DNA of 64,000 nt. Source: Clavibacter capsici. Lineage in GTDB: Bacteria > Actinomycetota > Actinomycetes > Actinomycetales > Microbacteriaceae. The notes beneath the pieces were generated by a model, which was not told the origin of the DNA, searched no databases, and saw nothing but the letters and a program-made list of their open reading frames with translations. Each line of letters starts with the position of its first letter. The first letter of the stretch is position 1. The position numbers were made by a program, and so were the translations under genes. Location: contig NZ_CP012573.1 of NCBI RefSeq assembly GCF_001280205.1, positions 682,001 to 746,000 on the forward strand, in the 5' to 3' direction. Shown piece after piece: positions 24,498 through 42,600 of this stretch.

Positions 24498-24850
24498 CGC
24501 CGAGGGCGGGGGAGAGGGACCCGATCCCGAGCCTCGAGGGCTGCGGGACCGGGCCGCGCACACGGCCGACTTTTACCCGAAGACCGGCCCGGCGCTGGCG
24601 GGACAGCTCACCCGAAGAGCTGTCGCCGTTGCCCACGATCGTACTGGTCCGACCGTCCGCCCCATGCGGGCTGTGGGCAGTCGGTGCGAGCGGTGCCCGT
24701 CCGTCCCGCTGACGGCGCCCGGGCGTCGCCCTGATGTAAACAGCGTGTAACGGGAGGTCGCGGACGCGACCCGGCCATTGCCAACACCCGTACGCGTATT
24801 TGTAATATGTCACCTACCACCGGCCACCCGAGGCGGGGCGAGGGAGTGAC
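24498..24850. other. Intergenic region between recQ and the GH127 operon
   Basis: This 353-bp gap holds a perfect 8-bp stem (24602-24609 with 24617-24624, loop ACCCGAA), perhaps the end of the recQ transcript, and then the promoter and operator of the GH127 operon at 24778-24813. ACCCGAAGA occurs twice, at 24575 and 24610. No gene seen. Confidence 0.5.
24778..24813 (+). promoter_or_regulatory. Promoter and operator (GTAATATGTCAC) of the GH127-peptide operon
   Basis: TTGCCA (24778-24783) and TAATAT (24803-24808) are spaced 19 bp like -35 and -10 boxes, about 40 bp before the ATG at 24851. The 12-mer GTAATATGTCAC at 24802-24813 overlaps the -10 box. Its exact reverse complement occurs at 35942-35953 before the hydroxyproline operon. 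The FCD regulator encoded between the two (35188) is the likely binder. Confidence 0.6.
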
Positions 24851-26854
24851 ATGGCAGTCAGCGGAGCAGGCGCGGACGACATCCGCGCCGCAGCACGTCG
24901 CCCGGCCGTGCTCCCCACCACCGGATCCCGGCAGCCGCTCGGGGCCGGGGAGGTCGCCCTGGAGGGCGGCCTGCTCGGCGCGTGGCAGGAGCGCAACCGG
25001 GAGCGGACCATCCCGCACGCGATCGCGTCGATGGCCGCCGCCGGCAACCTCGACGACCTCCGCGCGGCGGTGGACGGCCCCGGCGAGCGGCCCGTGCCGC
25101 GCTATCCGTTCCTCGACACCGACGTCTACAAGACCCTCGAGGGCGTCGCGTACGAGGTCGGGCGCGGCGTCGCCACCCCGGGGATGCGCGCCTTCCTCGC
25201 CGAGGCGACGGACGTGCTCGAGCGCGTGCAGGCCGACGACGGCTACATCGGCTCGTACGTGCAGCGGCCCGGATCCGACCGCGAGCCCTGGTCGGACCTC
25301 GCCTGGGGCCACGAGCTCTACAACCTCGGGCACCTGATCCAGGCCGCCGTCGCCGACTCCCGGCAGGGCGGCGAGGGCCGCCTCCTCGCGGTCGCCCGCC
25401 GGTTCGCCGACGCCGCGGTGCGGGAGTTCGGCCCCGACGGGCGCGCCGAGGTGTGCGGGCACCCCGAGGTCGAGATGGCGCTCGTCGAGCTGCACCGCGA
25501 GACGGGGGAGCGCGCGTACCTCGACCTCGCGTCCGCGTTCGTCGACCGGCGCGGCCACGGCACGGTCGCCACGCGGATCTTCCCGGCCGAGTACTTCCAG
25601 GACGCGCATCCGTTCCGGGAGATGCCCGCCGTCACGGGTCACGCCGTGCGCATGGCGTACCTGGCCGCGGGCGCCACGGACGTGGCGACGGAGACGGGCG
25701 ACGCGGAGCTGCTCGCCGCCTCCATCCGCCTCTTCGACGACGCCGTGCGCACCCGCCTCTACGTCACGGGCGGGCTCGGCAGCCGCCACTCGGACGAGGC
25801 CATCGGCGACGCCTACGAGCTGCCGAGCGAGCGCTCCTACAGCGAGACGTGCGCCGCGATCGCCGTGATGCAGTGGGCCTGGCGCCTCTTCCTCGCGACC
25901 GGCGAGCCGCGGTTCCTCGACGCGCACGAGACGGTGCTGCTGAACGCCTACGCCGTGGGCCTCTCCGCGGACGGCACGGGCTTCTTCTACGACAACCCGC
26001 TCCAGCGACGCCCCGACCACCACGCGCAGTCGGGCGCGGAGGTCGAGGGCGAGCTCCTCCGCCGGCCGTGGTTCACCTGCCCGTGCTGCCCGCCGAACAT
26101 CGTGCGCTGGATGAGCGAGCTGCAGGACCACGTGGCGGTGCGGGACGGCGACGACCTCGTGATCGCGCACCCGGCCGCGTGCGTGATCCGCACCGCCGCG
26201 CTCGACGTGCGCGTCACGACCGCGTACCCGTGGGACGGGTCGATCCGCGTCGAGGTGCTGCGCGCGTCCGGTGCGGAGGCCGGCATCGTGCTGCGCCGCC
26301 CGGGCTGGTGCCGCTCGGCGACCGCGGTCGTGCAGGGCGCCGACGGTTCCGCCGAGGTCGACGCGGCGGCCGCCGACCGGTGGATCCGCGCCACCCGCGC
26401 CTGGGCCCCCGGGGACGCGCTCGTGGTCGAGCTCGACATGCCCGTGCGCGCCCTCGGATCCCACCCGCACCTCGACGCGACGCGCGGCAGCCTCGCGGTC
26501 GCCCGCGGCCCCGTGGTCTACGCCGTCGAGCAGGAGGACGCCGGCGCACCCGTCGACGACCTGCTCCTCGACCCGCGCGACCTGGCGGCGGCGCGCACCG
26601 TGCCGCTGCCGGTCGACGCGCCGTGGGGTCCCGCGTCCGCCGCCACGGATCCCGCGTCCGGCGTCGCGCTTTCGCTCCGTCTCCGCCGCGCGGTGCCCGC
26701 ACCCGACGAGCTCTACCCCGAGGTCGTCCCCGGCACCGCCGCCCCCGCCCCGTCGGCCGACCCCGTCGACGCGGTCCTCGTCCCGTACGCCCTGTGGGGC
26801 AACCGGGACGCGGGGGCGATGCGCGTCTGGATCCGCGCGGCCGACACCGGCTGA
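24851..26854 (+). CDS. GH127 beta-L-arabinofuranosidase (HypBA1-like)
   Basis: A 667-residue (alpha/alpha)6-barrel glycosidase. GH127 hallmarks are EVCGHPEVEMALVELHRETG, VTGHAVRMAYLAAG, YVTGGLGSRHSDE, GDAYELPSERSYSETCAAIA and the cysteine cluster FTCPCCPPNIVRWMSEL, which supplies the zinc and nucleophile cysteines. A beta-sandwich follows from about residue 430. In Bifidobacterium the family removes beta-L-arabinofuranose from hydroxyproline-linked chains of plant extensins. There is no signal peptide, so it should work on imported glycopeptides. It is first in a run with a peptide transporter and two proline-specific peptidases. Confidence 0.88.
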   Translation: MAVSGAGADDIRAAARRPAVLPTTGSRQPLGAGEVALEGGLLGAWQERNRERTIPHAIASMAAAGNLDDLRAAVDGPGERPVPRYPFLDTDVYKTLEGVAYEVGRGVATPGMRAFLAEATDVLERVQADDGYIGSYVQRPGSDREPWSDLAWGHELYNLGHLIQAAVADSRQGGEGRLLAVARRFADAAVREFGPDGRAEVCGHPEVEMALVELHRETGERAYLDLASAFVDRRGHGTVATRIFPAEYFQDAHPFREMPAVTGHAVRMAYLAAGATDVATETGDAELLAASIRLFDDAVRTRLYVTGGLGSRHSDEAIGDAYELPSERSYSETCAAIAVMQWAWRLFLATGEPRFLDAHETVLLNAYAVGLSADGTGFFYDNPLQRRPDHHAQSGAEVEGELLRRPWFTCPCCPPNIVRWMSELQDHVAVRDGDDLVIAHPAACVIRTAALDVRVTTAYPWDGSIRVEVLRASGAEAGIVLRRPGWCRSATAVVQGADGSAEVDAAAADRWIRATRAWAPGDALVVELDMPVRALGSHPHLDATRGSLAVARGPVVYAVEQEDAGAPVDDLLLDPRDLAAARTVPLPVDAPWGPASAATDPASGVALSLRLRRAVPAPDELYPEVVPGTAAPAPSADPVDAVLVPYALWGNRDAGAMRVWIRAADTG

Positions 26855-26874
26855 CGCCCCGTCCGCGCGCGGCA

Positions 26875-26897
26875 CCCCGGATCCACCCGATCCGGGG
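26875..26897 (+). other. Intercistronic stem-loop before the binding-protein gene
   Basis: A perfect 9-bp stem CCCCGGATC/GATCCGGGG with a 5-nt loop lies in the 144-bp gap after the GH127 gene. Such hairpins before binding-protein genes can stabilise the downstream mRNA or partly terminate the upstream one, giving more binding protein than enzyme. Confidence 0.5.
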
Positions 26898-26998
26898 CGA
26901 TCGCGCGCACCTCCACCTCCCCTCCCACCCATCGCACGACCCCGTCCGTCACTCCCCACCCGGTGCGCTCCGGCCGCCATCCACGAAACGAGAGTCCG

Positions 26999-28681
26999 AT
27001 GAACAGACGAATCACCGCAGTCGGGCTGGCCGTCGCCGCCAGCCTCGCCCTCACGTCCTGCGCCGGCGCCGGAGGCGGCGGCGGGAGCGGCGACGTCACC
27101 GGCCCGGCCGACACCGGCGGCACCATGCACGTGCTGCAGAGCACCGACTTCTCGCACCTCGACCCGGAGATGGGGTACGACACCGGCGTCCAGAACCTCT
27201 ACCGGCTCATCTACCGCACGCTGACGACGTCGTCGGGGAAGGACGGCGCGACGATCGCCCCCGACCTCGCGACCGACACGGGCACCCCCAACGAGGACGC
27301 GACGGTGTGGACCTTCACGCTGAAGGACGGTCTCAAGTTCGAGGACGGCTCCCCGATCACGAGCGAGTCCGTCAAGTTCGGCGTCGAGCGCTCGTTCGAC
27401 CCGGCGCTCGCCATCGGCACGCCGTACACGCGCCTCTACCTCGCCGGCGCCGAGTCGTACAAGGGGCCCTACGAGTCGGGCGACCTCTCCTCCATCGAGA
27501 CCCCGGACGAGAGGACCATCGTCTTCCACCTCAACCGCCCGGTGCCGGAGTTCGCGAGCGTCGCGGCGCAGAGCACGTTCACGCCGTTCCCGGCGGACAA
27601 GGAGAAGGTGACGGTCACGAGCATCGACCAGCAGCCGATCGCCTCCGGCCCGTACCGGGTCACGGCCCGCACCGCGGGATCCTCCCTCACCCTCGAGCGG
27701 AACCCCGAGTGGGACCAGGCCACCGACGACGTGCGCACGGCCAAGCCCGACGCGTGGCAGTTCACCATCGGACTCGACCAGGCCACCATCGACGAGCGCA
27801 TGCTCGCCGGGCAGGGCGACGACAAGCAGGCGATCGCCGGCGCGATCACGGCCGCCTCGGTGTCCCGGATCCAGACGCCCGCGCTCAAGGCGCGCACCGT
27901 CTCCGGCGACTTCGGCTGCACCACCTACCTCGGCCTCAACACGACGAAGCCGCACCTCGACGACGTCCGCGTCCGCCAGGCGATCGCCTACGCGGTCGAC
28001 AAGAAGTCCCTCGCGGACGTCGCCGGCGGGCCCATGCTCGCGTCGCCGGCCTCGACGATGCTCACCCCCACCATCCCCGGGCACAAGGACTTCGACCTGT
28101 ACCCGAGCACCGACAGCGCGGGCGACGTCGACAAGGCGAAGGCGCTGCTGACCGAGGCCGGGCTCCCCGACGGCTTCACCATGACGCTCGACGTGCGCAA
28201 CCTGCCCACGGCGCAGAAGCAGGCAGAGGCGCTGCAGCAGTCGCTCGCCAAGGCGGGCATCACGCTCGAGCTCAACATCATCGACACCGCCACGTACTAC
28301 GAGACCATCGGCACCCCGTCGCAGCAGCACGACGCCGCCGTCACGGGCTGGTGCCCCGACTGGCGCTCCGCCAGCACCGTCCTGCCGACGCTCTTCGACG
28401 GCCGCCAGATCAGCGAGAAGGGCAACAACGACCTGTCGCAGCTCGACGACCCGGCGGTGAACGCCAAGATCGACGAGGTGTCCGCCATGACCGACCTCGA
28501 CGCGGCGAAGACGGCGTGGGGCGACCTCGACGAGCAGATCCAGCAGCTCGCGCCGACCGTGCCGCTCCTCTTCGGACAGACCGTCATGGTGGTCGGGCAG
28601 GACGTGCGGAACGCCTACTCGAACCCCCTCTGGGCAGGCGGCATCGACTTCGCCACCATCGGCCTCCACACGGGGAAGTAG
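26999..28681 (+). CDS. Oligopeptide-binding lipoprotein (SBP family 5)
   Basis: This 560-residue ABC solute-binding lipoprotein has the signal sequence MNRRITAVGLAVAASLALTS with lipobox LALTSC and a Gly-rich linker. The family-5 fold shows MGYDTGVQNLYRLIYRTL, TFTLKDGLKFEDGSPITSES, DDVRVRQAIAYAVDKKSL and WCPDWRSASTVLPTLF. Family 5 binds di- and oligopeptides and some glycans. Between an arabinosidase gene and proline-specific peptidases, its ligand is likely an arabinosylated hydroxyproline-rich peptide. The ATG at 26999 is preferred over 26963 because the signal peptide starts there. Confidence 0.9.
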   Translation: MNRRITAVGLAVAASLALTSCAGAGGGGGSGDVTGPADTGGTMHVLQSTDFSHLDPEMGYDTGVQNLYRLIYRTLTTSSGKDGATIAPDLATDTGTPNEDATVWTFTLKDGLKFEDGSPITSESVKFGVERSFDPALAIGTPYTRLYLAGAESYKGPYESGDLSSIETPDERTIVFHLNRPVPEFASVAAQSTFTPFPADKEKVTVTSIDQQPIASGPYRVTARTAGSSLTLERNPEWDQATDDVRTAKPDAWQFTIGLDQATIDERMLAGQGDDKQAIAGAITAASVSRIQTPALKARTVSGDFGCTTYLGLNTTKPHLDDVRVRQAIAYAVDKKSLADVAGGPMLASPASTMLTPTIPGHKDFDLYPSTDSAGDVDKAKALLTEAGLPDGFTMTLDVRNLPTAQKQAEALQQSLAKAGITLELNIIDTATYYETIGTPSQQHDAAVTGWCPDWRSASTVLPTLFDGRQISEKGNNDLSQLDDPAVNAKIDEVSAMTDLDAAKTAWGDLDEQIQQLAPTVPLLFGQTVMVVGQDVRNAYSNPLWAGGIDFATIGLHTGK

Positions 28682-28684
28682 GCG

Positions 28685-29647
28685 GTGACCGCCGCACTCC
28701 AGGGCGCCCCGGTGCCCGACTCCGCCCCCGCGTACCCGACGGGACGGCCGCCGGCCGTCACGCCGGCCACGCGCGTGGTCGCCGCCCTCCGGTCGACGCC
28801 GTCCGTGATCGCGAGCGCCGCGTTCGTGGTGCTCGTCCTCGTGCTCGCGGTGTTCGCGCCGCTCCTGTCCGGGATCACCGGGTGGGGGCCGACGACCTTC
28901 GACGCCACGGCCGTGGACCCCGTCCTCGGCGGCCTGCCCGTCGGCCCGTTCGGCGGCGTGAGCGCCTCGCACTGGTTCGGCGTCGAGCCGCAGAACGGGC
29001 GCGACATCTTCGCCCGCATCGCGTACGGCGCCCGGGTGTCCCTGCTCATCGCGGTCTCCGCCACGGTCGTCACCACGACGGTCGGCGTGGTGCTCGGCAT
29101 GGTCGCGGGCTACTTCGGCGGGATCGTCGACCAGGTCGTGTCGCGGGTCATGGACTTCCTCATGGCCTTCCCGGCGCTGATCTTCATGATCGCCATCCTG
29201 TCGGCGCTGCCCGCGGGCAACCGGCCGGCGCTCCTCGTCGTGGTGCTCAGCATCTTCGGCTGGCCGTACACGGCGCGCATCGTGCGCGGCCAGACCATGA
29301 CGATCCGCACCCGGGACTTCGTGGAGGCGGCCCGGGCGTCCGGCGCCTCCTCGATGCGGGTGGTCTTCCGGGAGGTGCTGCCGAACCTGCGCGGCACGAT
29401 CATCGTGCTCGCCACGCTCGCGGTGCCGAGCTACATCGGCACCGAGGCGGGCCTGTCGTTCCTGGGTGTCGGCGTGCAGCCGCCGACGCCGTCGTGGGGC
29501 CAGATGATCGCCGACTCGGTGGCCTGGTACACGGTCGACCCCGCGTACTTCATCGTGCCGGGCTCGTTCCTCTTCCTCACCGTGCTGTCGTTCACGGTCT
29601 TCGGCGACCACCTCCGCACCGCGCTCGAGCAGGGGGAGGCGGCATGA
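28685..29647 (+). CDS. Peptide ABC transporter permease (DppC-like)
   Basis: A 320-residue membrane permease starting at a GTG 3 bp after the binding-protein stop. It has one N-terminal helix (VIASAAFVVLVLVLAVFAPL), an outer loop and the binding-protein-dependent transport domain with DFLMAFPALIFMIAIL and the EAA-loop DFVEAARASGASSMRVVFRE. The C-type permease precedes the B-type here, the reverse of the common order. Its stop overlaps the next start (ATGA). Confidence 0.9.
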   Translation: MTAALQGAPVPDSAPAYPTGRPPAVTPATRVVAALRSTPSVIASAAFVVLVLVLAVFAPLLSGITGWGPTTFDATAVDPVLGGLPVGPFGGVSASHWFGVEPQNGRDIFARIAYGARVSLLIAVSATVVTTTVGVVLGMVAGYFGGIVDQVVSRVMDFLMAFPALIFMIAILSALPAGNRPALLVVVLSIFGWPYTARIVRGQTMTIRTRDFVEAARASGASSMRVVFREVLPNLRGTIIVLATLAVPSYIGTEAGLSFLGVGVQPPTPSWGQMIADSVAWYTVDPAYFIVPGSFLFLTVLSFTVFGDHLRTALEQGEAA

Positions 29648-30636
29648 TCGGCTACCTCGTCCGCCGGGCCGGATCCGCGCTGATCGTGCTCGCGCTCATC
29701 AGCCTGTTCACCTACATGATCTTCTTCCTGCTCCAGCCGGACCCCGCCGTCACCATCTGCGGCAAGACCTGCACGCCGGACAAGATCGACTCCATCCGCC
29801 AGCTCCTCGGCCTCGACCGGCCGTTCTGGGCGCAGTACGGCGACTTCCTCGCCGGCATCTTCACGGGCCGCTCGTACGGCGAGGGCGCGACCGCGATCCA
29901 GTGCGCGGCGCCGTGCCTCGGCTTCAGCTTCCAGACGCAGCAGTCGGTGCTCGACATGATCGTGTCCCGCCTGCCCGTGAGCATCACGCTCGCGGTCGGC
30001 GCGGCGGTCCTCTGGGTCGTCTTCGGCGTGGCCGGCGGCCTCGTCAGCGCGATCAAGCAGGGCACCGTGTGGGACCGGGCCGCCATGACGGCGGCGCTGA
30101 CCGGGATCAGCGTGCCGACGTACTTCGCGGCGCTGCTCCTGCAGTACGTGCTCGTGGTGCAGCTGCAGGTGCTGCCGTTCCCGCAGTCCGTGGACTTCGG
30201 CGACGACCCCGTCGTGTGGCTCCAGTCCTACATCATGCCGTGGCTCGTGCTCGCCCTCGGGTACGCGTCCGTGTACGCGCGGATCGTGCGGGCCAACGTG
30301 ATCGACACGCTGCAGGAGGACTACCTGCGCACCGCGCGGGCCAAGGGCCTGTCGGCGGCGCTCGTGATCCGCCGGCACGCGCTGCGGCCGTCGCTCACGC
30401 CCGTCGTCACCCTGTTCGGCATGGACTTCGCCGGGCTGCTCGGCGGGGCCCTCATCACGGAGACCGTCTTCGGGCTCAACGGCGTCGGCAAGCTCGCCGC
30501 CGACTCCATCGCCAAGAACGACCAGCCCGTCATCATGGGCGTCACGCTCCTCGCCGCGGCCTTCGTGGTCGTCGGGAACGTGGTCGTCGACGTGCTGTAC
30601 ACCGTGCTCGACCCCCGAGTGAGGATCACCGCGTGA
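29644..30636 (+). CDS. Peptide ABC transporter permease (DppB-like)
   Basis: This 330-residue permease has the typical B-type start, MIGYLVRRAGSALIVLALIS, and a 65-residue outer loop with LGLDRPFWAQYGDFL. The transport domain shows the EAA motif DYLRTARAKGLSAALVIRRH and ends in the conserved DVLYTVLDPRVR. Two cysteines in the loop (ICGKTC) may form a disulfide. It pairs with the C-type permease in the membrane channel. Its TGA overlaps the GTG of the ATPase gene (GTGA). Confidence 0.9.
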   Translation: MIGYLVRRAGSALIVLALISLFTYMIFFLLQPDPAVTICGKTCTPDKIDSIRQLLGLDRPFWAQYGDFLAGIFTGRSYGEGATAIQCAAPCLGFSFQTQQSVLDMIVSRLPVSITLAVGAAVLWVVFGVAGGLVSAIKQGTVWDRAAMTAALTGISVPTYFAALLLQYVLVVQLQVLPFPQSVDFGDDPVVWLQSYIMPWLVLALGYASVYARIVRANVIDTLQEDYLRTARAKGLSAALVIRRHALRPSLTPVVTLFGMDFAGLLGGALITETVFGLNGVGKLAADSIAKNDQPVIMGVTLLAAAFVVVGNVVVDVLYTVLDPRVRITA

Positions 30637-31499
30637 CCGCCACCGCACCGCACCAGCCGCCCGCCCGGGCCGTCCCCGGGACCCCGCTCCTCGAGGTCGA
30701 GCACCTCACCATCGCGTTCCCCACCTCGCGGGGGCCGGTCGAGGTGGTGAAGGACCTCTCCTTCCGCGTGGAGCCCGACAGCACCCTCGGCATCGTGGGG
30801 GAGTCGGGCTCCGGCAAGTCGATGACCTCGCTCGCCGTCATGGGACTCGTGCCCCGCGGCGGCGAGGTCACCGGCAGCATCCGGCTCGCGGGCGAGGAGC
30901 TCGTCGGGCGGTCGGACAGGGAGCTGCGCGCGATGCGGGGCGACCGGATGGCCATGGTGTTCCAGGATCCGCTGTCCTCGCTCAACCCCTACTTCACCGT
31001 GGGGCTGCAGATCGAGGAGGCGTACCGGGCGCACCGTCCGGGATCCCGGAAGGCCGTGCGGTCGACGGTGGTCGCGGCGCTCGAGCGGGTCGGCATCACG
31101 GAGGCCTCGACGCGCGTGGACCACTACCCGCACCAGTTCTCCGGCGGCATGCGCCAGCGCATCATGATCGCGATGGCGCTGTGCCTCGAGCCCGAGCTGC
31201 TGATCGCGGACGAGCCGACCACGGCGCTCGACGTGACGGTGCAGGCGCAGATCCTCGACCTGCTGCGCTCCATCCGCGCCGAGACGGGGATGGGGATGCT
31301 CGTGATCACGCACGACCTCGCCGTCGTGTCCTCCCTCGCCGACGAGGTGCTCGTCATGCAGGGCGGGCACCGCGTGGAGAGCGGCACCGCCGAGCGCGTG
31401 TTCACCGCGCCGGAGGACCCGTACACGCACGCCCTGCTCGAGGCGATCCCCCGCATCGACGCCGCCTACGACCGACCGACGACGGGATCCGCCTCATGA
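30633..31499 (+). CDS. Peptide ABC transporter ATPase (DppD-like)
   Basis: A 288-residue cytoplasmic ATPase with Walker [21 protein letters not shown]-loop [17 protein letters not shown], signature [15 protein letters not shown], Walker [19 protein letters not shown] and switch VITHDLAVV. The short C-terminal extension ([17 protein letters not shown]) is typical of oligopeptide transporters, although the cysteine cluster that binds iron-sulfur in some DppD proteins is absent. GTG start, overlapping the upstream stop. Confidence 0.9.
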
Positions 31500-32419
31500 G
31501 CACGCACGACGCCCCCACCGGGACCCCGGAGCCCTTCCTCTCCGCCCGCGACCTCGTGAAGGAGTACGTGACGCGCGGCGGCCGCGGGCTCCGACCGCCC
31601 GTGCGCCGCTTCCGCGCCGTCGACGGCGTGAGCCTCGACGTGCCGACCGGGCAGACGCTCTCGATCGTGGGGGAGTCCGGATCCGGCAAGTCGACGACCG
31701 CGCGCATCGTCGCCCACCTGCTCGACCCCACGTCCGGCACGTTCGCGCTGAAGGGCGAGGACATGACGCACGCGACGGGCGCCCGGCTGCGGGAGTTCCG
31801 GCGGCAGGTGCAGGTGGTGTTCCAGGATCCGGCGTCGTCGCTCAACCCGCGGCACACGGTGGAGCAGATCATCAGCGCGCCCCTGCGGTACCAGGGCATC
31901 ACGACGCCCGGCGGGCACGGGAGGCTCGTGCGCGACCTGCTCGACCGGGTGGGCCTGGACCCGGACCACGCGCAGCGCTACCCGGCCCAGTTCTCCGGCG
32001 GGCAGTGCCAGCGCATCGGGATCGCGCGGGCGCTCGCCGTGAGCCCGGGCCTCATCGTGTGCGACGAGGCGGTCTCCGCGCTCGACGTGACGGTGCAGGC
32101 GCGGGTCATCGCGCTGCTGCGCGACCTCCAGCGCGAGCGCGGCCTCAGCTACGTCTTCATCGCGCACGACCTCGCCGTCGTGCGGCAGCTCTCCGACCGC
32201 GTCGCCGTGATGAGCGCCGGGAAGGTCGTGGAGGAGGGGACGCGCGACGACGTCTTCGAGCGCCCGCAGCACCCGTACACGCGGTCGCTGCTGGACGCCG
32301 TGCCGCGCATCGATCCCGAGTGGGACCGCCGTCGCGAGGCCGCGCGGGCCGCCGCGGGGCTCGCGCCGGGATCGCTCAGCACGGGCGCCGTGCGCACGTC
32401 GGACGGGTCGGCCGCGTGA
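31496..32419 (+). CDS. Peptide ABC transporter ATPase (DppF-like)
   Basis: A 307-residue ATPase partner of the preceding gene product. Walker A is [21 protein letters not shown]-loop VVFQDPASSLNPRHTVEQII, signature FSGGQCQRIGIARALAV and Walker [20 protein letters not shown]. Walker B has Asp-Glu-Ala where Asp-Glu-Pro is usual, which occurs in F-type subunits. The C-terminal RPQHPYTRSLLDAVPRIDP is typical. The ATG overlaps the upstream TGA, and its own TGA overlaps the GTG of the hydrolase gene. Confidence 0.9.
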   Translation: MSTHDAPTGTPEPFLSARDLVKEYVTRGGRGLRPPVRRFRAVDGVSLDVPTGQTLSIVGESGSGKSTTARIVAHLLDPTSGTFALKGEDMTHATGARLREFRRQVQVVFQDPASSLNPRHTVEQIISAPLRYQGITTPGGHGRLVRDLLDRVGLDPDHAQRYPAQFSGGQCQRIGIARALAVSPGLIVCDEAVSALDVTVQARVIALLRDLQRERGLSYVFIAHDLAVVRQLSDRVAVMSAGKVVEEGTRDDVFERPQHPYTRSLLDAVPRIDPEWDRRREAARAAAGLAPGSLSTGAVRTSDGSAA

Positions 32420-35168: not shown

Positions 35169-35187
35169 CCCGAGGAGGAGGACCCGC

Positions 35188-35901
35188 GTGAGCCTCTCCG
35201 CACTGCGTCCCGCACCGCCCCGCGCGAGCCTGCGCGAGCACGTGCACCAGGCCCTGTCCGCGGCCATCGTCTCCGGCGAGCTGGAGCCGGGCACGCTCAT
35301 CACGGTGCCGACGCTCGCGGTGCGCTTCGACGTCTCCGCCACCCCCGTGCGCGAGGCGATGCTCGAGCTCGAGAAGCGCGGGTTCGTCGAGACCGTGCGC
35401 AACAAGGGCTTCCGCGTCACGGCGGTGAGCGACGAGGAGCTCGGCCACCTCGTGCAGGTGCGCCAGCTCCTCGAGGCGCCGGCCATGGAGCGGCTCGCGG
35501 GGCGGGTGCCCGACCGGGAGCTGCCTGACCTGGAGGCGCTCGCCGACCGGATCGAGCAGGGTGCGCGCGACGGCGACCTCCGCGCGTACCTCGAGGCCGA
35601 CCAGGAGTTCCACCTGTCGCTCACGCGCATGCTCGGGAACCCCGTCCTCACGGAGTCCATCGCGGACCTCCGCTCGCGCACGCGCCTCGTCGGCCTCGCG
35701 TCGATGAAGGAGAGCGCCATGCTCGACGCGTCGGCCGCCGAGCACCACGAGCTGCTGCGGGCGCTCGTCGCGGGCGACGGCGCCGCGGCGCACGAGCTCA
35801 TGGTGCGGCACATCCGCCACGCCACCGGCTGGTGGGCGGGTCGCGGCGAGGCCGAGGACGAGGGCGACGGCGTCGTGGATCCCGCTTCCGCGCGGGCCTG
35901 A
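35188..35901 (+). CDS. GntR-family regulator, FCD type
   Basis: A 237-residue repressor. The winged helix (about 12-75) has ITVPTLAVRFDVSATPVREA and MLELEKRGFVETVRNKGFRV. The FCD domain has LVQVRQLLEAPAMERLAG, LEADQEFHLSLTRMLGNPVL, AAEHHELLRALVAGDG and LMVRHIRHATGWW, with the usual Asp/His metal residues. GAGGAGGAGG precedes the GTG. It lies between the glycopeptide operon and the hydroxyproline operon, and the same 12-mer lies before both, so it probably coordinates them. The inducer may be hydroxyproline or a pathway intermediate. Confidence 0.88.
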   Translation: MSLSALRPAPPRASLREHVHQALSAAIVSGELEPGTLITVPTLAVRFDVSATPVREAMLELEKRGFVETVRNKGFRVTAVSDEELGHLVQVRQLLEAPAMERLAGRVPDRELPDLEALADRIEQGARDGDLRAYLEADQEFHLSLTRMLGNPVLTESIADLRSRTRLVGLASMKESAMLDASAAEHHELLRALVAGDGAAAHELMVRHIRHATGWWAGRGEAEDEGDGVVDPASARA

Positions 35902-35941
35902 GCCGGTTCCTCCACGGGGAGCTTCCCCTGCCGCACGATGT

Positions 35942-35953
35942 GTGACATATTAC
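35942..35953. promoter_or_regulatory. Operator GTGACATATTAC of the hydroxyproline operon
   Basis: This 12-mer is the exact reverse complement of 24802-24813. It lies 61 bp before the ATG at 36015, and the CATATT inside it (35946-35951) could be the -10 box. A short GGGGA/TCCCC hairpin at 35916-35928 lies between it and the regulator gene. Confidence 0.6.
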
Positions 35954-36014
35954 TGTCATCGCCGACCACCGCCGCCTGATCCAGGCGCTTCCGACCCGTG
36001 AGACGAGGGACCGC

Positions 36015-37226
36015 ATGACGCGTCACGTGGTCGTCGTCGGGGGAGGCATCGTCGGCGCCGCGTGCGCCCGGTCGCTCGCCCGGGCCGGGATCCGCGTCAC
36101 GGTCGTCGAGCGGGCCGCGGTCGCGTCCGGCACGAGCGCGCAGGGCGAGGGCAACATCCTCGTGTCCGACAAGGGCCCCGGCGCGGAGCTCGAGCTCGCG
36201 CAGCTCGCCGCCCGCCGCTGGCCCGAGGTCGCCGCCGAGCTCGCGGACGAGCTGGGCGACGCTCTCCCCTCCATCGAGTACGAGCCCAAGGGCGGGCTCG
36301 TCGTCACGACCACCGACGAGGGCGCGGATCCCCTCCTCTCCTTCGCGGCGACCCAGCGCTCCGCGGGCGTCGCCGCGATCCCCGTCGACGTGCGCCGCGC
36401 CCTCGAGCTGGAGCCGTGGCTGAACCCCGCGATCACCGCGGCCGTGCACTACCCCGAGGACGCGCAGGTGCAGCCCGCCATCGCGACCGAGGCGCTCGCG
36501 GCCTCGGCCCGGCGGGCGGGCGCCGTCGTGCGCACCGGCGTCGAGGTCATCGGGCCGCTGCTCGACGCGGACGGCGCGCTCCGCGGCGTGCGGACGAGCG
36601 CGGGCGACATCCCCGCCGACGACGTGCTCGTCGCCGCGGGGCCCTGGTCGGGGGAGGTGGCGCGCGCCCTCGGCGTCGAGCTGCCCGTGCTGCCGCGGCG
36701 CGGGGTCGTGCTCGTCACCACGCGCATGCCCCACCGCATCCTCCACAAGGTCTACGACGGCGACTACGTGGGCGCCGTCGGCTCCGGCGACGGGGCGCTG
36801 CAGACCTCGGGCGTCGTCGAGTCGACGCCGTCCGGGACGGTGCTCATCGGATCCAGCCGCGAGCGCGTCGGCTTCGACGCGTCGCTGCGCGTGGCCGTGC
36901 TCGAGGAGCTCGCCGCGAAGGCCGTGCGGCTGTTCCCCTTCCTCGCCGACGCGAACGCCATGCGGTCCTACGGCGGCTTCCGCCCGTACCTGCCCGACCA
37001 CCTGCCCGTCGTCGGCCCGGATCCGCGGCTGCCGGGCCTCTGGCACGCGAGCGGGCACGAGGGCGCCGGGATCGGGCTGTCGGTCGCGACGGCCGACCTC
37101 ATCGCGGCGCAGATGACGGGCGCGGCGACACCGCTCGACGTGCGGCCGTTCTCGGTCGCGCGCGCCTCGCTCGGGCTCGCGATGCCCGGGGCCGTGGCGG
37201 CCGACCCGCAGCGGGTGCGCGCGTGA
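36015..37226 (+). CDS. D-hydroxyproline dehydrogenase, FAD (DAO-type) subunit
   Basis: This 403-residue flavoprotein of the D-amino-acid-oxidase family has the FAD site RHVVVVGGGIVGAACARSLA, EGNILVSDKGPGAELELAQL, and the C-terminal region YGGFRPYLPDHLPVVGPDP with GLWHASGHEGAGIGLSVATA. The next two genes encode a small 2Fe-2S protein and a second flavoprotein, which is the make-up of the heteromeric D-hydroxyproline dehydrogenases that oxidise cis-4-hydroxy-D-proline. GAGGGA precedes the ATG. It is first in the operon. Sarcosine or another imino acid is a less likely substrate given the downstream epimerase and deaminase. Confidence 0.85.
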   Translation: MTRHVVVVGGGIVGAACARSLARAGIRVTVVERAAVASGTSAQGEGNILVSDKGPGAELELAQLAARRWPEVAAELADELGDALPSIEYEPKGGLVVTTTDEGADPLLSFAATQRSAGVAAIPVDVRRALELEPWLNPAITAAVHYPEDAQVQPAIATEALAASARRAGAVVRTGVEVIGPLLDADGALRGVRTSAGDIPADDVLVAAGPWSGEVARALGVELPVLPRRGVVLVTTRMPHRILHKVYDGDYVGAVGSGDGALQTSGVVESTPSGTVLIGSSRERVGFDASLRVAVLEELAAKAVRLFPFLADANAMRSYGGFRPYLPDHLPVVGPDPRLPGLWHASGHEGAGIGLSVATADLIAAQMTGAATPLDVRPFSVARASLGLAMPGAVAADPQRVRA

Positions 37227-37564
37227 CGCCGCGGCGCGTGGATCCGGCCTGCGACCCGATCCGGCCGGCACCCGGCGATGCCGTGCGCTTCACCGTGGAC
37301 GGGGATCCCGTCGAGGGCCTGCGCGGCCAGACCATCGCGGGCGCGCTCCTCGCCTCCGGCACGCTCGCCTGGCGCACGACCGCGAGCGCGGGGCGCCCGC
37401 GCGGCGTCTTCTGCGGGATCGGCGTGTGCTTCGACTGCACCGTCACCGTGAACGGCCTGCCCGACGTGCGCGCCTGCCAGCGCCGCGCGGTCGAGGGCGA
37501 CGTGGTGGAGACCGGACCGGGCGCGACCGTGCCCGACGCCGACGCGGCGGGGGAGGCCTCGTGA
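37223..37564 (+). CDS. D-hydroxyproline dehydrogenase, 2Fe-2S subunit
   Basis: A 113-residue ferredoxin-like protein. The cluster ligands are seen in VFCGIGVCFDCTVTVNG and the later VRACQRRAV (C-x4-C-x2-C-x11-C), the pattern of the small subunit in sarcosine-oxidase-alpha-like and D-hydroxyproline dehydrogenase complexes. The segment FTVDGDPVEGLRGQTIAGAL is also typical. It passes electrons between the two flavoprotein subunits. It starts at a GTG overlapping the upstream TGA and overlaps the next gene in the same way, so subunit amounts are probably coupled. Confidence 0.87.
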   Translation: MTPRRVDPACDPIRPAPGDAVRFTVDGDPVEGLRGQTIAGALLASGTLAWRTTASAGRPRGVFCGIGVCFDCTVTVNGLPDVRACQRRAVEGDVVETGPGATVPDADAAGEAS

Positions 37565-39152
37565 GCGCCGCGGACGACCGGCGGCACGTCGTCGTGGTCG
37601 GCGCGGGACCCGCGGGGCTCGCCGCCGCGGTCGTCGCCCGGGGTCGCGGGGCGCGGGTCACGCTGCTCGACGCGTCGGACGAGCTGGGCGGCCAGTACTG
37701 GCGGCACCTGCCGGCCTCGCGGCCGGCCGCGCGCGAGCGGATCCTGCACCACGGCTGGGACGCGTTCACCGCGCTCCGCGAGCGGCTCGCGGCCGACGAC
37801 GGCTGCGCGATCGTGACCGGCGCGCAGGTGTGGGCGATCGAGCGGCCGGCCGACGGCGCCGTCCACGCTCCCGCCGCGGTGCTCCACGTGCTCGTCGGCC
37901 AGGTCGACGGATCCCGCCGCGCACCCCTGACCCTCCGCCCGGACGCGCTCGTCCTCGCGACCGGCGCGCACGACCGCACGCTGCCCTTCCCCGGCTGGGA
38001 CCTGCCGGGCGTCTTCACCGCGGGTGCCGCCCAGGCGCTGGCGAAGGGCGAGCGCGTGGCGATCGGCGACCGGGTGGTCGTCGCCGGCGCGGGCCCCTTC
38101 CTCCTCCCCGTCGCCGTCTCGCTCGTGCAGGCCGGGGCGCGCGTCGTGGGGATCCACGAGGCCGCGCGCGTGCCGGCGCTCGCGCGCGGCTGGCTGCGGG
38201 ATCCGCTCGGCCTCGCCCGGGCGCCGCACAAGGCCGCCGAGCTCGCGGGGTACGTCTCCGTGCTGGCGCGCGAGCGGATCGGGTACGCCACCGGCAGCGC
38301 GGTCGTCGCCGCGCACGGGACCGACCGCGTCGAGGCCGTCACCGTGCAGCGCCTCGACGCGTCGTGGGCGCCGATCCCGGGCACCGAGCGGCGGATCGCC
38401 GTGGACGCCGTGTGCGTCGGCCACGGGTTCACGCCGCGCCTCGAGCTGCCCATCGCCGCGGGGTGCCGCATCGGGCCCGACCGGTTCGTCGAGGTCGACG
38501 CGTCGCAGGGAGCTGGACCGGCGGGCGTCTACGCCGCCGGCGAGATCACGGGCATCGGGGGAGTGGACCAGGCGCTCGCGGAGGGCGAGGTCGCGGGGCA
38601 CTGCGCCGCGGGCGGATCCCCGTCCGACGCCGCCGTCGCGCCCGCCGTCCGCCGCCGCGCGGTCGCGCACGACGTGGCCGGCCGCATCGAGGCCGCGCAC
38701 GGGATCCGCCCCGGCTGGACCGGCTGGCTGCGCGACGACACGCTCGCGTGCCGCTGCGAGGAGGTGCCCGTCGGCCGGATCCGCGCGACCGCCCGCGCCG
38801 CCTCCTCCACCGACCTGCGCTCCATGAAGCTCGCCACGCGCGCCGGCCTCGGCATCTGCCAGGGCCGCGTGTGCGGGCGGACCGTGGAGGAGCTGCTCGC
38901 GGCGGACGCGCCGGCGTGCGGAGCCGCACCCGCCGTGCCGCCCGCCTCCGCCGCCCCCGGCTCCGACCGCCGCCCCATCGCCTCGCCCGTGCGCCTCGGC
39001 GAGCTCGCCGCCGCCCACGACCGCCGCGACGCCGGACCCCCGTCCCTCGCCGCGGCCGCCCCGGCGTCGACGACCCGCCGCCGGAGCCCGCTCCCGCCTC
39101 CCCGACCACCCCCGCACCGCCCCGCACCACCGACCGGAAGGACACGCCATGA
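37561..39152 (+). CDS. D-hydroxyproline dehydrogenase, FAD/NAD and BFD-like subunit, frameshifted at C-terminus
   Basis: The flavoprotein has its first dinucleotide site at VVVVGAGPAGLAAAVVARG and a second at VVVAGAGPFLLPVAVSLVQA. A C-terminal cysteine domain follows (CRCEEVPVGRIRAT, GICQGRVCGRTVEEL), and RPIASPVRLGELA is close to the natural end. Soon after, at the C run 39059-39062, the frame slips: as written it stays open through the whole next gene to 40077. Adding one C restores a short Pro-rich tail (DDPPPEPAPAS) and a TGA at 39150-39152 that overlaps the next ATG. The end given is the repaired one. GTG start. Confidence 0.8.
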
Positions 39153-40066
39153 CCGCACCCGCCCTGGACCTCGGAGGCGTCGTCGTCGCCACCACGCTGC
39201 CGTTCCGCGAGGACGCGTCGGCCCCCGCCGGCCTCGCCGTCGACTACGACGCGTACGCCCGGCACTGCGACTGGCTCATGGCGAACGGCTGCCGCGGCGT
39301 CGGGCCGAACGGATCCCTCGGCGAGTACTCGTCGCTCACCGACGAGGAGCGCCGGAAGGTCGTGCAGGTCGCGGTCGAGACGGTCGGCGACCGCGGGATC
39401 GTCGTCGCGGGCGTGCACGGCGTCGGCTGGCACCAGGCGAGGAAGTGGGCCGAGCTCGCGGCCGAGGACGGCGCCGACGGCGTGCTGCTCCTGCCGCCCA
39501 CCATCTACCGGGCGAGCGACGACGAGGTCGTCGAGCACTACGCGCGCGTCGACGAGGTGGGCCTGCCGATCATGGCCTACAACAACCCGTTCGACACCAA
39601 GGTCGACCTGACGCCCGAGCTCCTCCGACGGCTCGACGCGCTCGAGAACGTCGTGGCGATCAAGGAGTTCTCCGGCGACATCCGCCGCGTGACGGAGATC
39701 CAGGACCTGACGGGCCTCGACGTGATCGCGGGCGCCGACGACCTGCTGCTCGAGTCGCTCATCATGGGCGCGGTCGGCTGGTTCGCGGGCTACCCGAACG
39801 CCTTCCCGCGCGAGGCCGTCGAGCTCTACGGGCTCGCGACCAGCGGCCGCATCGAGGAGGCGAAGGAGCTGTACCGCCACCTCGTGCCCGTGTTCCGCTG
39901 GGACTCGCGCACCGAGTTCGTGCAGGCCATCAAGCTGTCGATCGACGTGGCCGGCGAGAGCACGGGCGGCCCCACGCGTCCGCCGCGCGCGCCGCTGCCG
40001 GCCGCCGTCGCGGAGCAGGTCACGCGCGACACCCGCCGCGCGCTCGACCACCTCGCCGGACGATGA
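39149..40066 (+). CDS. DapA-family lyase, likely pyrroline-4-hydroxy-2-carboxylate deaminase
   Basis: A 305-residue class I aldolase-type barrel. Typical segments are GVGPNGSLGEYSSLTDEERR near residue 50, the tyrosine region MAYNNPFDTKVDLTPELL and the Schiff-base lysine in VVAIKEFSGDIRRV. True dihydrodipicolinate synthases have GTTGE at the first site; GSLGE is common in deaminating relatives. Between D-hydroxyproline dehydrogenase and the semialdehyde dehydrogenase it should convert 1-pyrroline-4-hydroxy-2-carboxylate to 2-oxoglutarate semialdehyde plus ammonia. The upstream frame fully overlaps it only because of the frameshift noted there. Confidence 0.85.
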   Translation: MTAPALDLGGVVVATTLPFREDASAPAGLAVDYDAYARHCDWLMANGCRGVGPNGSLGEYSSLTDEERRKVVQVAVETVGDRGIVVAGVHGVGWHQARKWAELAAEDGADGVLLLPPTIYRASDDEVVEHYARVDEVGLPIMAYNNPFDTKVDLTPELLRRLDALENVVAIKEFSGDIRRVTEIQDLTGLDVIAGADDLLLESLIMGAVGWFAGYPNAFPREAVELYGLATSGRIEEAKELYRHLVPVFRWDSRTEFVQAIKLSIDVAGESTGGPTRPPRAPLPAAVAEQVTRDTRRALDHLAGR

Positions 40067-40073
40067 TCGACGG

Positions 40074-41075
40074 ATGAGGTCCTCCCGCGTCTTCCACGCC
40101 GTCGACTCGCACACGGAGGGCATGCCGACCCGCGTCGTCACGAGCGGCTTCGGCGTGATCCCCGGCTCCACCATGAACGAGCGCCGCCTGCACCTCATCG
40201 AGAACCTCGACCACCTGCGGCTCCTGCTCATGACCGAGCCGCGCGGCCATGCGGCCATGAGCGGCGCGATCCTGCAGCCGCCCACGCGCGACGACTGCGA
40301 CTGGGGCGTCCTCTACATCGAGGTGTCCGGCTGCCTGCCGATGTGCGGCCACGGCACCATCGGCGTCGCGACCGTGCTGGTGGAGACCGGGCTCGTGGAG
40401 GTGCAGGAGCCGGTCACCACCATCCGGCTCGACACCCCGGCGGGCCTCGTGATCGCGCGGGTCGACGTCGAGGACGGGCGCGCCGCGTCGGTCACGATCG
40501 AGAACGTGCCCTCGTACGTGGAGCGGCTCGACGCCTCGATCGAGGTGCCCGGCTACGGCACCGTGCCGTACAGCCTCGCGTTCGGCGGCAACTTCTACGC
40601 GGTCGTGGAGCTGGACGACGTGGGGCTGCCGTTCGACCGGGAGCGTCAGCAGGAGATCCTCCAGGCCGGGCTCGCGATCATGGGCGCGATCAACGACCAG
40701 GACGCGCCGTCGCATCCGGAGATCACGGGCGTCGACCACTGCCACCACGTCGAGTTCCTCGCGCCCGGATCGGACGCCGGGCTCTCCCGGCACGCCATGG
40801 CGATCCACCCCGGCTGGTTCGACCGCTCGCCGTGCGGCACCGGCACGTCCGCGCGCATGGCCGAGCTGTGGGCGCGCGGCGAGCTGGCGGTCGGCGACGA
40901 GTTCGTCAACGAGTCGTTCATCGGCAGCCGCTTCACCGGCCGGATCCTCCGGGAGACGACCGTCGCCGGCCGGCCCGCGATCATCCCGGCCATCACGGGC
41001 CGCGCGTGGATCACCGGCATGGGCCAGTACCTGCTCGATCCCACCGACCCGTTCCCGAGCGGCTTCCGGTTCTGA
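40074..41075 (+). CDS. 4-hydroxyproline 2-epimerase (proline racemase family)
   Basis: A 333-residue member of the proline racemase family. The two catalytic cysteines are present, in CLPMCGHGTIGVATVLVETG and DRSPCGTGTSARMAEL; AVDSHTEGMPTRVV begins the fold. A Cys/Cys pair is used by both proline racemases and hydroxyproline epimerases. With D-hydroxyproline dehydrogenase in the same operon the epimerase role is clear by context: trans-4-hydroxy-L-proline to cis-4-hydroxy-D-proline. The ATG follows the DapA-family stop by 7 bp, with only a weak ribosome-binding site. Confidence 0.88.
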   Translation: MRSSRVFHAVDSHTEGMPTRVVTSGFGVIPGSTMNERRLHLIENLDHLRLLLMTEPRGHAAMSGAILQPPTRDDCDWGVLYIEVSGCLPMCGHGTIGVATVLVETGLVEVQEPVTTIRLDTPAGLVIARVDVEDGRAASVTIENVPSYVERLDASIEVPGYGTVPYSLAFGGNFYAVVELDDVGLPFDRERQQEILQAGLAIMGAINDQDAPSHPEITGVDHCHHVEFLAPGSDAGLSRHAMAIHPGWFDRSPCGTGTSARMAELWARGELAVGDEFVNESFIGSRFTGRILRETTVAGRPAIIPAITGRAWITGMGQYLLDPTDPFPSGFRF

Positions 41076-41100
41076 GCCGACGCCCCCACCGAGGAGAGAC

Positions 41101-42600
41101 ATGACCCCGCACGAGACCGACCCGACCACCGACCCGACCGTGGCGGAGACCGTGGACGCCGTCGCCGCGCGCGCCGCGGAGGCCGCCGCCCCGCTCGCCG
41201 CCCTCGCCCCGGCCGCCCGCGCCCGCGCGCTCGAGGCGGTGGCCGACGCGCTCGAGGCGATCCGCCCCGAGCTGCTGCCCGTCGCGGAGCGGGAGACCGC
41301 GCTCGCGCCCGGCCGCCTCGCGGGGGAGCTGACGCGCACCACCGTGCAGCTGCGGATCCTCGCGGCGGCCGTCCGCGACGGCCGGTACCTGGACGCGCGC
41401 ATCGACCACGCGGATCCGGAGGCCGCGCCCACCCCGCGCCCCGACATCCGCCGGTGCCTCGTGCCCGTCGGCCCGGTGCTCAACTTCGCGGCGTCGAACT
41501 TCCCGTTCGCGTTCTCGGTCGCGGGCGGGGACACGGCTTCGGCGCTCGCCGTCGGCTGCCCGGTCGTGGTCAAGGCGCACCCGGGGCACCCCGAGCTGTC
41601 GCGCCGCGTCGCGGCCGCCGCCTCCGCCGCGCTCGTCGAGGCCGGCCTGCCCGAGGGCGCGCTCCAGCTGATCGAGGGCGAGGAGGCGGGGCTCGCGATG
41701 CTGCGCGACCCGCGGATCCGCGCCGCCACCTTCACGGGGTCGCTCCGCGCCGGCCGCTTCCTCGCCGACGTCGCCGCGGCCCGCCCCGACCCGATCCCGT
41801 TCTTCGGGGAGCTGGGCAGCGTCAACCCGGTCGTCCTCACCGAGCGCGCGGTCGCGGAGCGCGGGGAGGGCATCGCGCGCGCCCTCGTGGCGAGCGCCGC
41901 CGGATCCGCCGGGCAGCTCTGCACCGCGCCCGGCATCGTGCTGGTCCCCGCGGGCCACGGCCTCGACGCCGTGCTCGCGGAGGAGGCCGGCGCCGTCGCG
42001 CCGCACGGCATGCTCAACGGGAGGATCGCCGAGGGCTACGCCGACGGCCGCGCCGCCGCGATCGCGGTCGACGGCGTGCGCCTCGTGGCCGAGGGCCGCG
42101 CGCCCGCGGGCGACGACGGATCCGTCACCCCCACGATCGCCGCCGTCGCGCTCGCCGACTTCGAGGCCGCGGGCGACGCGCTCCGCCACGAGGTCTTCGG
42201 CCCGTTCGCGCTCCTCGTGGAGTACCCCGCGGGCACCGACCTCGCGGCGCTCGCCGCCCGCACGTTCACGGGCGAGCTGACCGCGAGCGTCCACCTCGGC
42301 GAGGGCGAGGCCGACGAGGCCGCGGCCCGGCTGATCCGCGTGCTCGCCGCCCGCGCCGGCCGCGTGCTCGTCGACGCCTGGCCGACCGGCGTCTCCGTCA
42401 CCGACGCGCAGCAGCACGGCGGACCCTGGCCCGCCACCACGCTCGACCGCGGCACGAGCGTCGGCACCGCGTCGCTCGACCGGCTCCTCCGCGGCGTCGC
42501 GTTCCAGGGCGTGCCCGACGCGCTCCTGCCCGAGCCGCTGCGCACCGCGAACCCGTGGGGCGTGCCGCAGCGGGTGAGCGCGCGCGGCGCCCGCGCGTAG
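41101..42600 (+). CDS. 2-oxoglutarate semialdehyde dehydrogenase
   Basis: This 499-residue aldehyde dehydrogenase has NFAASNFPFAFSVAGGDTAS, VVKAHPGHPELSRR, TFTGSLRAGRFLADV, catalytic Glu in FFGELGSVNPVVLTE and catalytic Cys in AGQLCTAPGIVLVP, the pattern of KGSADH enzymes. It finishes the pathway by oxidising the semialdehyde to 2-oxoglutarate with NAD(P). GAGGAGAG precedes the ATG. It is the last gene of the operon that starts at 36015. Confidence 0.9.
   Translation: MTPHETDPTTDPTVAETVDAVAARAAEAAAPLAALAPAARARALEAVADALEAIRPELLPVAERETALAPGRLAGELTRTTVQLRILAAAVRDGRYLDARIDHADPEAAPTPRPDIRRCLVPVGPVLNFAASNFPFAFSVAGGDTASALAVGCPVVVKAHPGHPELSRRVAAAASAALVEAGLPEGALQLIEGEEAGLAMLRDPRIRAATFTGSLRAGRFLADVAAARPDPIPFFGELGSVNPVVLTERAVAERGEGIARALVASAAGSAGQLCTAPGIVLVPAGHGLDAVLAEEAGAVAPHGMLNGRIAEGYADGRAAAIAVDGVRLVAEGRAPAGDDGSVTPTIAAVALADFEAAGDALRHEVFGPFALLVEYPAGTDLAALAARTFTGELTASVHLGEGEADEAAARLIRVLAARAGRVLVDAWPTGVSVTDAQQHGGPWPATTLDRGTSVGTASLDRLLRGVAFQGVPDALLPEPLRTANPWGVPQRVSARGARA

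Follow-up and report, generated by a model that had tools for sequence, protein, structure and literature searches.

We analyzed a 64,000-nucleotide window of the 3.24-Mb Clavibacter capsici genome (C1:682001-746000, GC content 74%; positions below are those of the window), in which 15 genes at 24851-42600, all on the + strand, carry the families for peptide import, deglycosylation and the use of hydroxyproline (Hyp). The locus is probably a HypR-type regulon for Hyp O-arabinosyl peptides, which joins their import, deglycosylation and cleavage by peptidases to the catabolism of Hyp to 2-oxoglutarate. This reading is carried by the gene set, its conservation in other genera and an element shared by the two promoters of the locus.

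Gene content of the locus

The genes lie between those for RecQ and an acyl-CoA oxidase, in the order GH127-SBP-permC-permB-oppD-oppF-S33-M24B-FCD-DAO-Fer2-Nox-HypD-ProRac-ALDH. Their families had been named earlier from the sequence alone (the original prediction), and gene calls and Pfam/NCBIfam profile searches confirmed each of them at family level. From GH127 to FCD the spacing is -4 to 26 bp, apart from a 144-bp gap behind GH127, and from DAO to ALDH it is -4 to 25 bp (with the end of the FAD/NAD subunit set at 39152). These distances point to two transcripts, the first running as far as FCD and the second starting with DAO.

The second predicted transcript holds in one operon the Pfam families of the whole route from trans-4-Hyp to 2-oxoglutarate, namely epimerase, dehydrogenase, deaminase and semialdehyde dehydrogenase, as had been proposed, and it supports a predicted role of the locus in Hyp use. 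A three-part cis-4-hydroxy-D-proline dehydrogenase would be formed by a DAO-family subunit (Pfam DAO, 36015-37226), a 2Fe-2S subunit (Pfam Fer2_4, 37223-37564) and an FAD/NAD subunit with a BFD-like part (Pyr_redox_2 and Fer2_BFD, 37561-39152, end uncertain). The frame of the last (37561-40077) continues without a stop across the next gene. Its homologues in 15 other Clavibacter genomes end at a 4-base overlap with the deaminase gene, and the open frame likely reflects a frame change in a variable C-terminal tail or a sequencing error. The predicted pyrroline-4-hydroxy-2-carboxylate deaminase (39149-40066, DHDPS family) and 2-oxoglutarate semialdehyde dehydrogenase (41101-42600, Aldedh family) are named by context. 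The predicted 4-hydroxyproline epimerase (40074-41075, proline racemase family) has the motifs MCGHGT at 90 and SPCGTGT at 252, hence two catalytic Cys and not the dehydratase form; two Cys are the mark that separates 4-hydroxyproline epimerases from that form. Its best score among the models of its family was with NCBIfam PRK13971 (349.1 bits, cut-off 376), and with the proline racemase model it reached 347.9 of 556 bits.

The first predicted transcript encodes the complete family set of an Opp-type peptide importer: a family-5 solute-binding lipoprotein (SBP_bac_5, 26999-28681) with an LTSC lipobox, OppC-like (28685-29647) and OppB-like (29644-30636) permeases, both BPD_transp_1, and OppD-like (30633-31499) and OppF-like (31496-32419) ATPases, both with oligo_HPY. 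Among solved chains the binding protein is closest to OppA2 (2wok, 317.5 bits), which favours peptides as its ligand and as the predicted cargo of the importer. Next come an S33-type, prolyl aminopeptidase-like protein (32446-33723), of the alpha/beta hydrolase family with the nucleophile motif GQSYG at 138 and with Arabidopsis AT3g61540 as its nearest solved chain, and an M24B, Xaa-Pro aminopeptidase-like protein (33720-35168; AMP_N and Peptidase_M24) that keeps the metal ligand motifs. The last gene (35188-35901) encodes an FCD/GntR regulator.

The transcript opens with a GH127 glycosidase (24851-26854), a predicted beta-L-arabinofuranosidase acting on Hyp-linked arabinose. Its catalytic (PF07944, 274.8 bits), middle (48.8) and C-terminal (68.5) domains all score over cut-off. 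E316, E332, C334, C412 and C413 are invariant across eight aligned GH127 rows and are also aligned to 3wkw; they make up the catalytic set of the family (Glu, Glu-x-Cys, Cys-Cys), in which we take each residue to have its familiar role. The chemistry described for GH127 uses a Cys nucleophile and Zn (PMC10850190). The protein is apparently cytosolic, as the original prediction had it: its translation, judged without a signal-peptide predictor, shows no N-terminal hydrophobic stretch. We rejected orthology with HypBA1, from which a tree places the clade of this GH127 (the module clade) apart. In that tree, one branch parts 34 cluster GH127 rows from three known enzymes in 200 of 200 bootstrap trees, and the branch of the cluster rows versus 19 other rows has support 88/91, the three known enzymes being partial rows. 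The substrate is therefore predicted from gene context. A second, distant GH127-family gene stands elsewhere in the genome (G000:C1:282177-283322; 28% identity over the aligned part, with a very long tree branch).

Conservation of the gene order

Beyond Clavibacter, 16 genomes from five genera share the complete 15-gene order, with identities of 51-82% (genus groups G148, G210, G260, G304; G059, G177; G066, G182, G236, G284, G325, G361, G390; G248; and G300, G339), among them Microbacterium sp. MPKO10, Okibacterium fritillariae, Leifsonia sp. ALI-44-B, several Plantibacter, Planctomonas deserti and Agromyces subbeticus. Since the order is conserved in other genera, a chance grouping of the genes is excluded. 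The original prediction had suggested a search for this order in other plant-associated actinobacteria; it was found, and it is not confined to plant associates, the module GH127 recurring in Kribbella, Nonomuraea, Streptomyces, Arthrobacter, Isoptericola and others.

Within Clavibacter, a GH127 orthologue is present in 16 of 18 genomes including our own (86-92% identity in the others), and the deaminase in 17. In one genome (G013, locus L083) the stretch from GH127 to M24B is missing here as a single block: recQ adjoins a 41-residue M24B stub, and FCD and the Hyp operon, both retained, come next. Another (G014, 92% complete) has neither a GH127 nor a deaminase orthologue. Among 119 relatives, 20 have this GH127 at 50% identity or more, and all 20 have the deaminase, which occurs in 32 of the 119 overall. 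The arrangement also varies: importer and Hyp operons are divergent, with no S33 there, in G069; GH127 to M24B stand apart from the Hyp operon, found elsewhere, in G020; the two parts lie far apart, each with an FCD gene, in G142; and S33, M24B and Hyp genes occur with no importer in G164. S33 as the sole marker of the module was rejected: of 39 S33-centred stretches, drawn from places found in 68 of 398 genomes, 15 contain GH127 together with the importer, and in 16 S33 is present but the module is not.

A wider sample was obtained by scanning named genomes with two peptide motifs from eight module GH127 proteins; neighbouring genes played no part in the search. The best 80 of 136 loci were kept, so the sample leans to the module clade, and its loci are not independent of kinship. 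They come from Microbacteriaceae, Kribbella, Nonomuraea, Streptosporangium, Streptomyces, Arthrobacter, Isoptericola, Krasilnikoviella, Terrabacter, Phytoactinopolyspora and others. GH127 identity was at least 50% in 71 of the 80; dropping four with less than 9 kb downstream (L241, L254, L275, L289) left 67. Importer subunits lie downstream, on the same strand as GH127, in 66 of these 67 loci. A same-strand S33 is present in 60, M24B in 52 and either or both in 66. FCD genes occur in 38 loci, and genes for Hyp enzymes (deaminase, DAO or epimerase) in 41. None of the nine loci with GH127 below 50%, seven of which have more than 9 kb downstream, shows this importer and peptidase arrangement; one of them (L317) does hold Opp-type genes of lower similarity (29-52% identity), but on the opposite strand.

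A promoter element shared by both operons

Both promoters of the locus contain GTGACATATTAC, and no other place in the genome fits the 13-base pattern within one mismatch. The operator-like element GGTGACATATTAC lies on the - strand at 24802-24814 (+ strand: GTAATATGTCACC), 36 bp 5′ of GH127, and TGTGACATATTAC lies on the + strand at 35941-35953, 5′ of the catabolic operon. The shared element was first recognised by reading the promoters of 22 loci. ATGTGTGACATATTACTG, or a near variant of it, is present in the DAO promoters of many genera; in GH127 promoters the element is inverted, TAATATGTCAC or TAATGTGTCAC.

When TGTGACAYATTAC was sought in the genome with up to two mismatches, four matches were obtained vs. 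three for the reversed control; the two best, with zero and one mismatch, are the GH127 and DAO promoters. This pattern was derived from those promoters, and other operator tests therefore weigh more; loose-mismatch scans come near control, so the operator case rests on the places with zero or one mismatch and on other genera. Sites within one mismatch number 64 across 30 chosen genomes (2 for the reversed pattern); 25 of the genomes carry one or more, and none was found in G014, G024, G033, G038 and G078. In G142 and G249 the importer and Hyp operon are far apart, yet sites are present at both parts.

HypR of Streptomyces coelicolor was footprinted on TACAATGTCAC and bound TGCAATGTCAC in an electrophoretic mobility shift assay, as described in PMC6608401; TACAATGTCAC and TAATATGTCAC are alike at 9 of 11 positions. 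Across the 80 loci (1.63 Mb) the HypR 11-mer TRCAATGTCAC was counted 34 times and its reversed control not once. Of these sites, 33 stand beside the start of GH127 or the deaminase: 17 were placed there by script, and 16 form inverted pairs in eight Kribbella loci, no more than 60 bp ahead of the aligned GH127 region, the start codon there being uncertain. The remaining site (L252) lies after M24B. In 14 whole genomes chosen for holding the 11-mer it occurs 32 times (control, 1), and in two of them, both Kribbella (L247 and L256), the sole two sites are those before GH127. The FCD regulator of the window has E96, D138, H142, E185, H186 and H208 at positions identical to those of the HypR (SCO6294) metal site. 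These data support the assignment of the FCD protein as a HypR-like regulator with a candidate operator at both promoters.

A FadR-type operator, TNGTN(0-3)ACNA, was rejected, giving scattered matches only in the promoters of 33 loci, and a search of promoters for perfect gapped palindromes gave nothing consistent. A sigma-70 scan returned no promoter, and a terminator scan one terminator-like sequence, at chance level; a promoter-like pair, TTGCCA-N17-TGTAAT, missed by the former and noticed by eye, abuts the element at 24802-24814.

The original prediction had proposed a single regulated unit from transport to central metabolism. Gene order in other genera, the element shared by both promoters and its presence at the separated parts in G142 and G249 bear this out, and the coupling of peptide import and deglycosylation with Hyp catabolism under one regulator is a firm prediction from sequence.

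Genes near GH127 in other genomes

In Arthrobacter sp. MYb227 (L266:2438-9716) a LacI gene, araB, araD, araA, a mutarotase-like gene and a second proline-racemase-family gene are divergent from GH127 (AraA and LacI called by Pfam, the racemase-family gene by tblastn, and araB, araD and the mutarotase read from translations). araA is within the locus in two of the 71 module loci (L266, L252) and in one of the nine others (L310). Arabinose genes beside GH127 would fit the release of arabinose and Hyp from one substrate.

Some genomes of a Microbacterium group encode, divergently from GH127 and with operator-like sites in the intervening stretch, a protein that has an LPXTG anchor and an HEFGH motif (L218:1858-4164, L217:11304-13601). 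A full-length homologue was found in 4 of 26 genomes searched, all of this group, and neither in G018 of the group nor in our own genome. The sole family hint is an ATLF domain (21.2 of 27.4 bits, below cut-off), and no solved chain matched; the protein could be an extracellular protease for the Hyp-peptide route. In the same loci (L217:6642-10176, L218:5329-8844), a second proline-racemase-family gene, an ornithine-cyclodeaminase-family gene and an alanine-symporter-family gene stand near operator sites, a set that perhaps serves trans-3-hydroxyproline use.

Proposed route and alternative readings

For the GH127 substrate, the imported ligand, the order of steps, the repression and its effector, we infer the following scheme. 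Outside the cell, other proteases would make short Hyp-rich peptides still bearing beta-L-arabinofuranose. The lipoprotein would bind these arabinosyl Hyp peptides and the Opp-type ABC importer take them in. In the cytosol, GH127 would strip beta-L-arabinofuranose from Hyp, and M24B and S33 would then cut Xaa-Pro/Hyp and N-terminal Pro/Hyp bonds, freeing trans-4-hydroxy-L-proline, which the epimerase, three-subunit dehydrogenase, deaminase and semialdehyde dehydrogenase would convert to 2-oxoglutarate. The freed arabinose would enter the arabinose path of the cell (AraA is encoded elsewhere in the genome). The FCD regulator would repress both operons through one operator and be relieved by an intermediate of Hyp catabolism. 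The data are consistent with the original prediction that arabinosylated extensin peptides are imported whole.

Several observations weigh against this reading. The module GH127 forms a clade of its own, apart from HypBA1, the Geobacillus enzyme 4qjy and 6ex6, and its sole NCBIfam match is aceric acid hydrolase (NF049879, 313.3 bits vs. a cut-off of 950). The 15 genes include no extracellular enzyme, no alpha-arabinosidase and no GH121 or GH43 (a genome-wide search for GH121/GH43 was not made); extensin Ara4 chains would therefore need other enzymes, and the sugar could stem from glycopeptides other than extensin. The narrower enzyme names in the locus rest on gene context: the families proposed originally stood, whereas prolyl aminopeptidase, Xaa-Pro aminopeptidase and semialdehyde dehydrogenase stayed below model cut-offs. 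The S33 protein scored 37.8 of 259.75 and 33.8 of 167.65 bits with the NCBIfam pro_imino_pep models, M24B 222.9 of 465 bits with the Xaa-Pro aminopeptidase model, and the Aldedh protein 66.3 bits with AlphKGSA_gudD (cut-off 770), other semialdehyde dehydrogenase models being also far below. In the wider sample, no Hyp enzyme is within reach at 26 of the 67 loci; the genomes of 25 encode an epimerase homologue (67-80% identity), the exception being L258. One locus (L262) has GH127 and peptidases with no importer over threshold, and another (L266) has the importer with no peptidase within reach.

The promoter data also hold such points. A scan of the window with up to three mismatches gave 2 sites vs. 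a shuffle mean of 2.61, not separable from chance. G024, G033, G038 and G078 carry Hyp genes, yet have no site within one mismatch. Only 26 of the 71 loci have the operator core in the 250 bp ahead of GH127 (shuffle mean 3.4, maximum 8). The TRCAATGTCAC scan adds sites in some of the other 45; many of the 80 loci, including most from Nonomuraea, show no such operator. Finally, S. coelicolor HypR was unaffected by L- or D-Hyp in vitro, as described (PMC6608401).

Alternatively, the locus may serve Hyp peptides of whatever origin, also from collagen or gelatin, with GH127 as an accessory that extends its range to glycosylated peptides of plants and with most flux unglycosylated. We consider this unlikely, though it accommodates G038 and G249, which have importer, S33 and M24B without an adjoining GH127 of the module clade (the G249 stretch holds a 32% GH127 homologue), as well as the S33 stretches of G063, G126, G127, G191, G243 and G290, with a different importer and no GH127. 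S. coelicolor HypR is also described as controlling a putative secreted M9 collagenase (PMC6608401). The module GH127, however, is followed by a same-strand importer in 66 of 67 loci (loci found through GH127), and many GH127 promoters bear the operator.

Family-5 binding proteins carry non-peptide ligands too, and small Hyp-arabinosides (Ara-Hyp, Ara2-Hyp) might be what is imported, the peptidases having a side role. The activity of the GH127 enzyme XeHypBA1 on Ara-Hyp (PMC6085000) agrees with this; the OppA2-like binding protein and the recurrence of S33 and M24B beside GH127 speak against it, and we regard it as quite unlikely. That GH127 acts on an unrelated sugar (aceric acid of rhamnogalacturonan II, or another beta-arabinoside) and stands here by history would suit its separate clade and the aceric acid hydrolase match, but is very improbable given that the genes stay linked in several actinobacterial families and share the Hyp operator. 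Independent neighbouring operons without a functional link are scarcely credible: the modules can part (G013 is without one, and G142 and G249 have them apart), but both parts in G142 and G249 still bear the element, only two promoters match it in the C. capsici genome, the importer is linked in 66 of 67 loci, and the HypR 11-mer stands at GH127 and deaminase starts.

Returning to arabinosyl Hyp peptides as the cargo, a more far-reaching version would be a widespread import-first route of actinobacteria with its own GH127 subfamily, whose preferred ligands are triarabinosylated plant signal peptides or small apoplast Hyp glycopeptides, so that signals are erased while feeding. Such ligands may be triarabinosylated because an exo-beta-arabinofuranosidase should suffice for all-beta Ara3, and not for extensin Ara4; we hold this version to be a long shot.

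Comparison with known systems

Hydroxyproline glycoproteins are a major component of plant walls; in the bacterial systems covered by the sources cited here, the sugars are removed extracellularly or free sugar is used. A conserved joint switch, if true, would explain whole-molecule use of these glycoproteins by soil and plant actinobacteria. The coupling would also hint at what the GH127 clade does, for which we found no characterised member, and it opens the HypR effector and the cargo of family-5 binding proteins to testing. Among the matches listed from the open-licence PMC literature, we found no description of a coupled import, deglycosylation and Hyp catabolism unit.

The hyp genes of Sinorhizobium meliloti and the lhp genes of Pseudomonas aeruginosa belong to systems that take up free Hyp and, to our knowledge, have no glycosidase. 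They share the Hyp route with Clavibacter, but have other regulators or effectors (cited in PMC6608401). The S. coelicolor operon SCO6289-6293 encodes dehydrogenase subunits, deaminase and epimerase, with HypR as FCD repressor (PMC6608401). It resembles the Clavibacter locus in the metal-site residues of the regulator, the operator core ATGTCAC and the Hyp operon. In contrast, the regulon includes a putative secreted collagenase, a 2-oxoglutarate dehydrogenase/decarboxylase and a divergent transporter gene (SCO6295), and, as described, no GH127, S33 or M24B (PMC6608401).

Bifidobacterium longum, with HypAA/HypBA2/HypBA1, likewise has an intracellular GH127 and ABC import, with Hyp-linked beta-arabinofuranosides as the target (PMC7263609). 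There, extracellular GH43 and GH121 enzymes cut the sugar off and beta-Ara2 is imported, whereas Clavibacter has a peptide-type importer (SBP_bac_5, not a sugar-binding protein), peptidases and Hyp catabolism; the 15 genes contain neither the GH121 plus GH43 pair nor the sugar-binding protein of the bifidobacterial system. The plant pathogen Xanthomonas euvesicatoria (XeHypBA1/BA2/AA) shares GH127, which there releases arabinose from Ara-Hyp, but has a GH121/GH43 cascade in an operon under HrpX, and Hyp catabolic genes are not mentioned in what is described of it (PMC6085000). A proposal for Latescibacteria also reads GH127 as a sign of extensin use (PMC4454575); it is an in silico enzyme list in which freed arabinose is imported, and the description mentions no Hyp regulon. 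Compared with these systems, the Clavibacter locus is, as read from its genes, a new combination of known parts, in which HypR-type control of Hyp use is widened to peptide import and deglycosylation.

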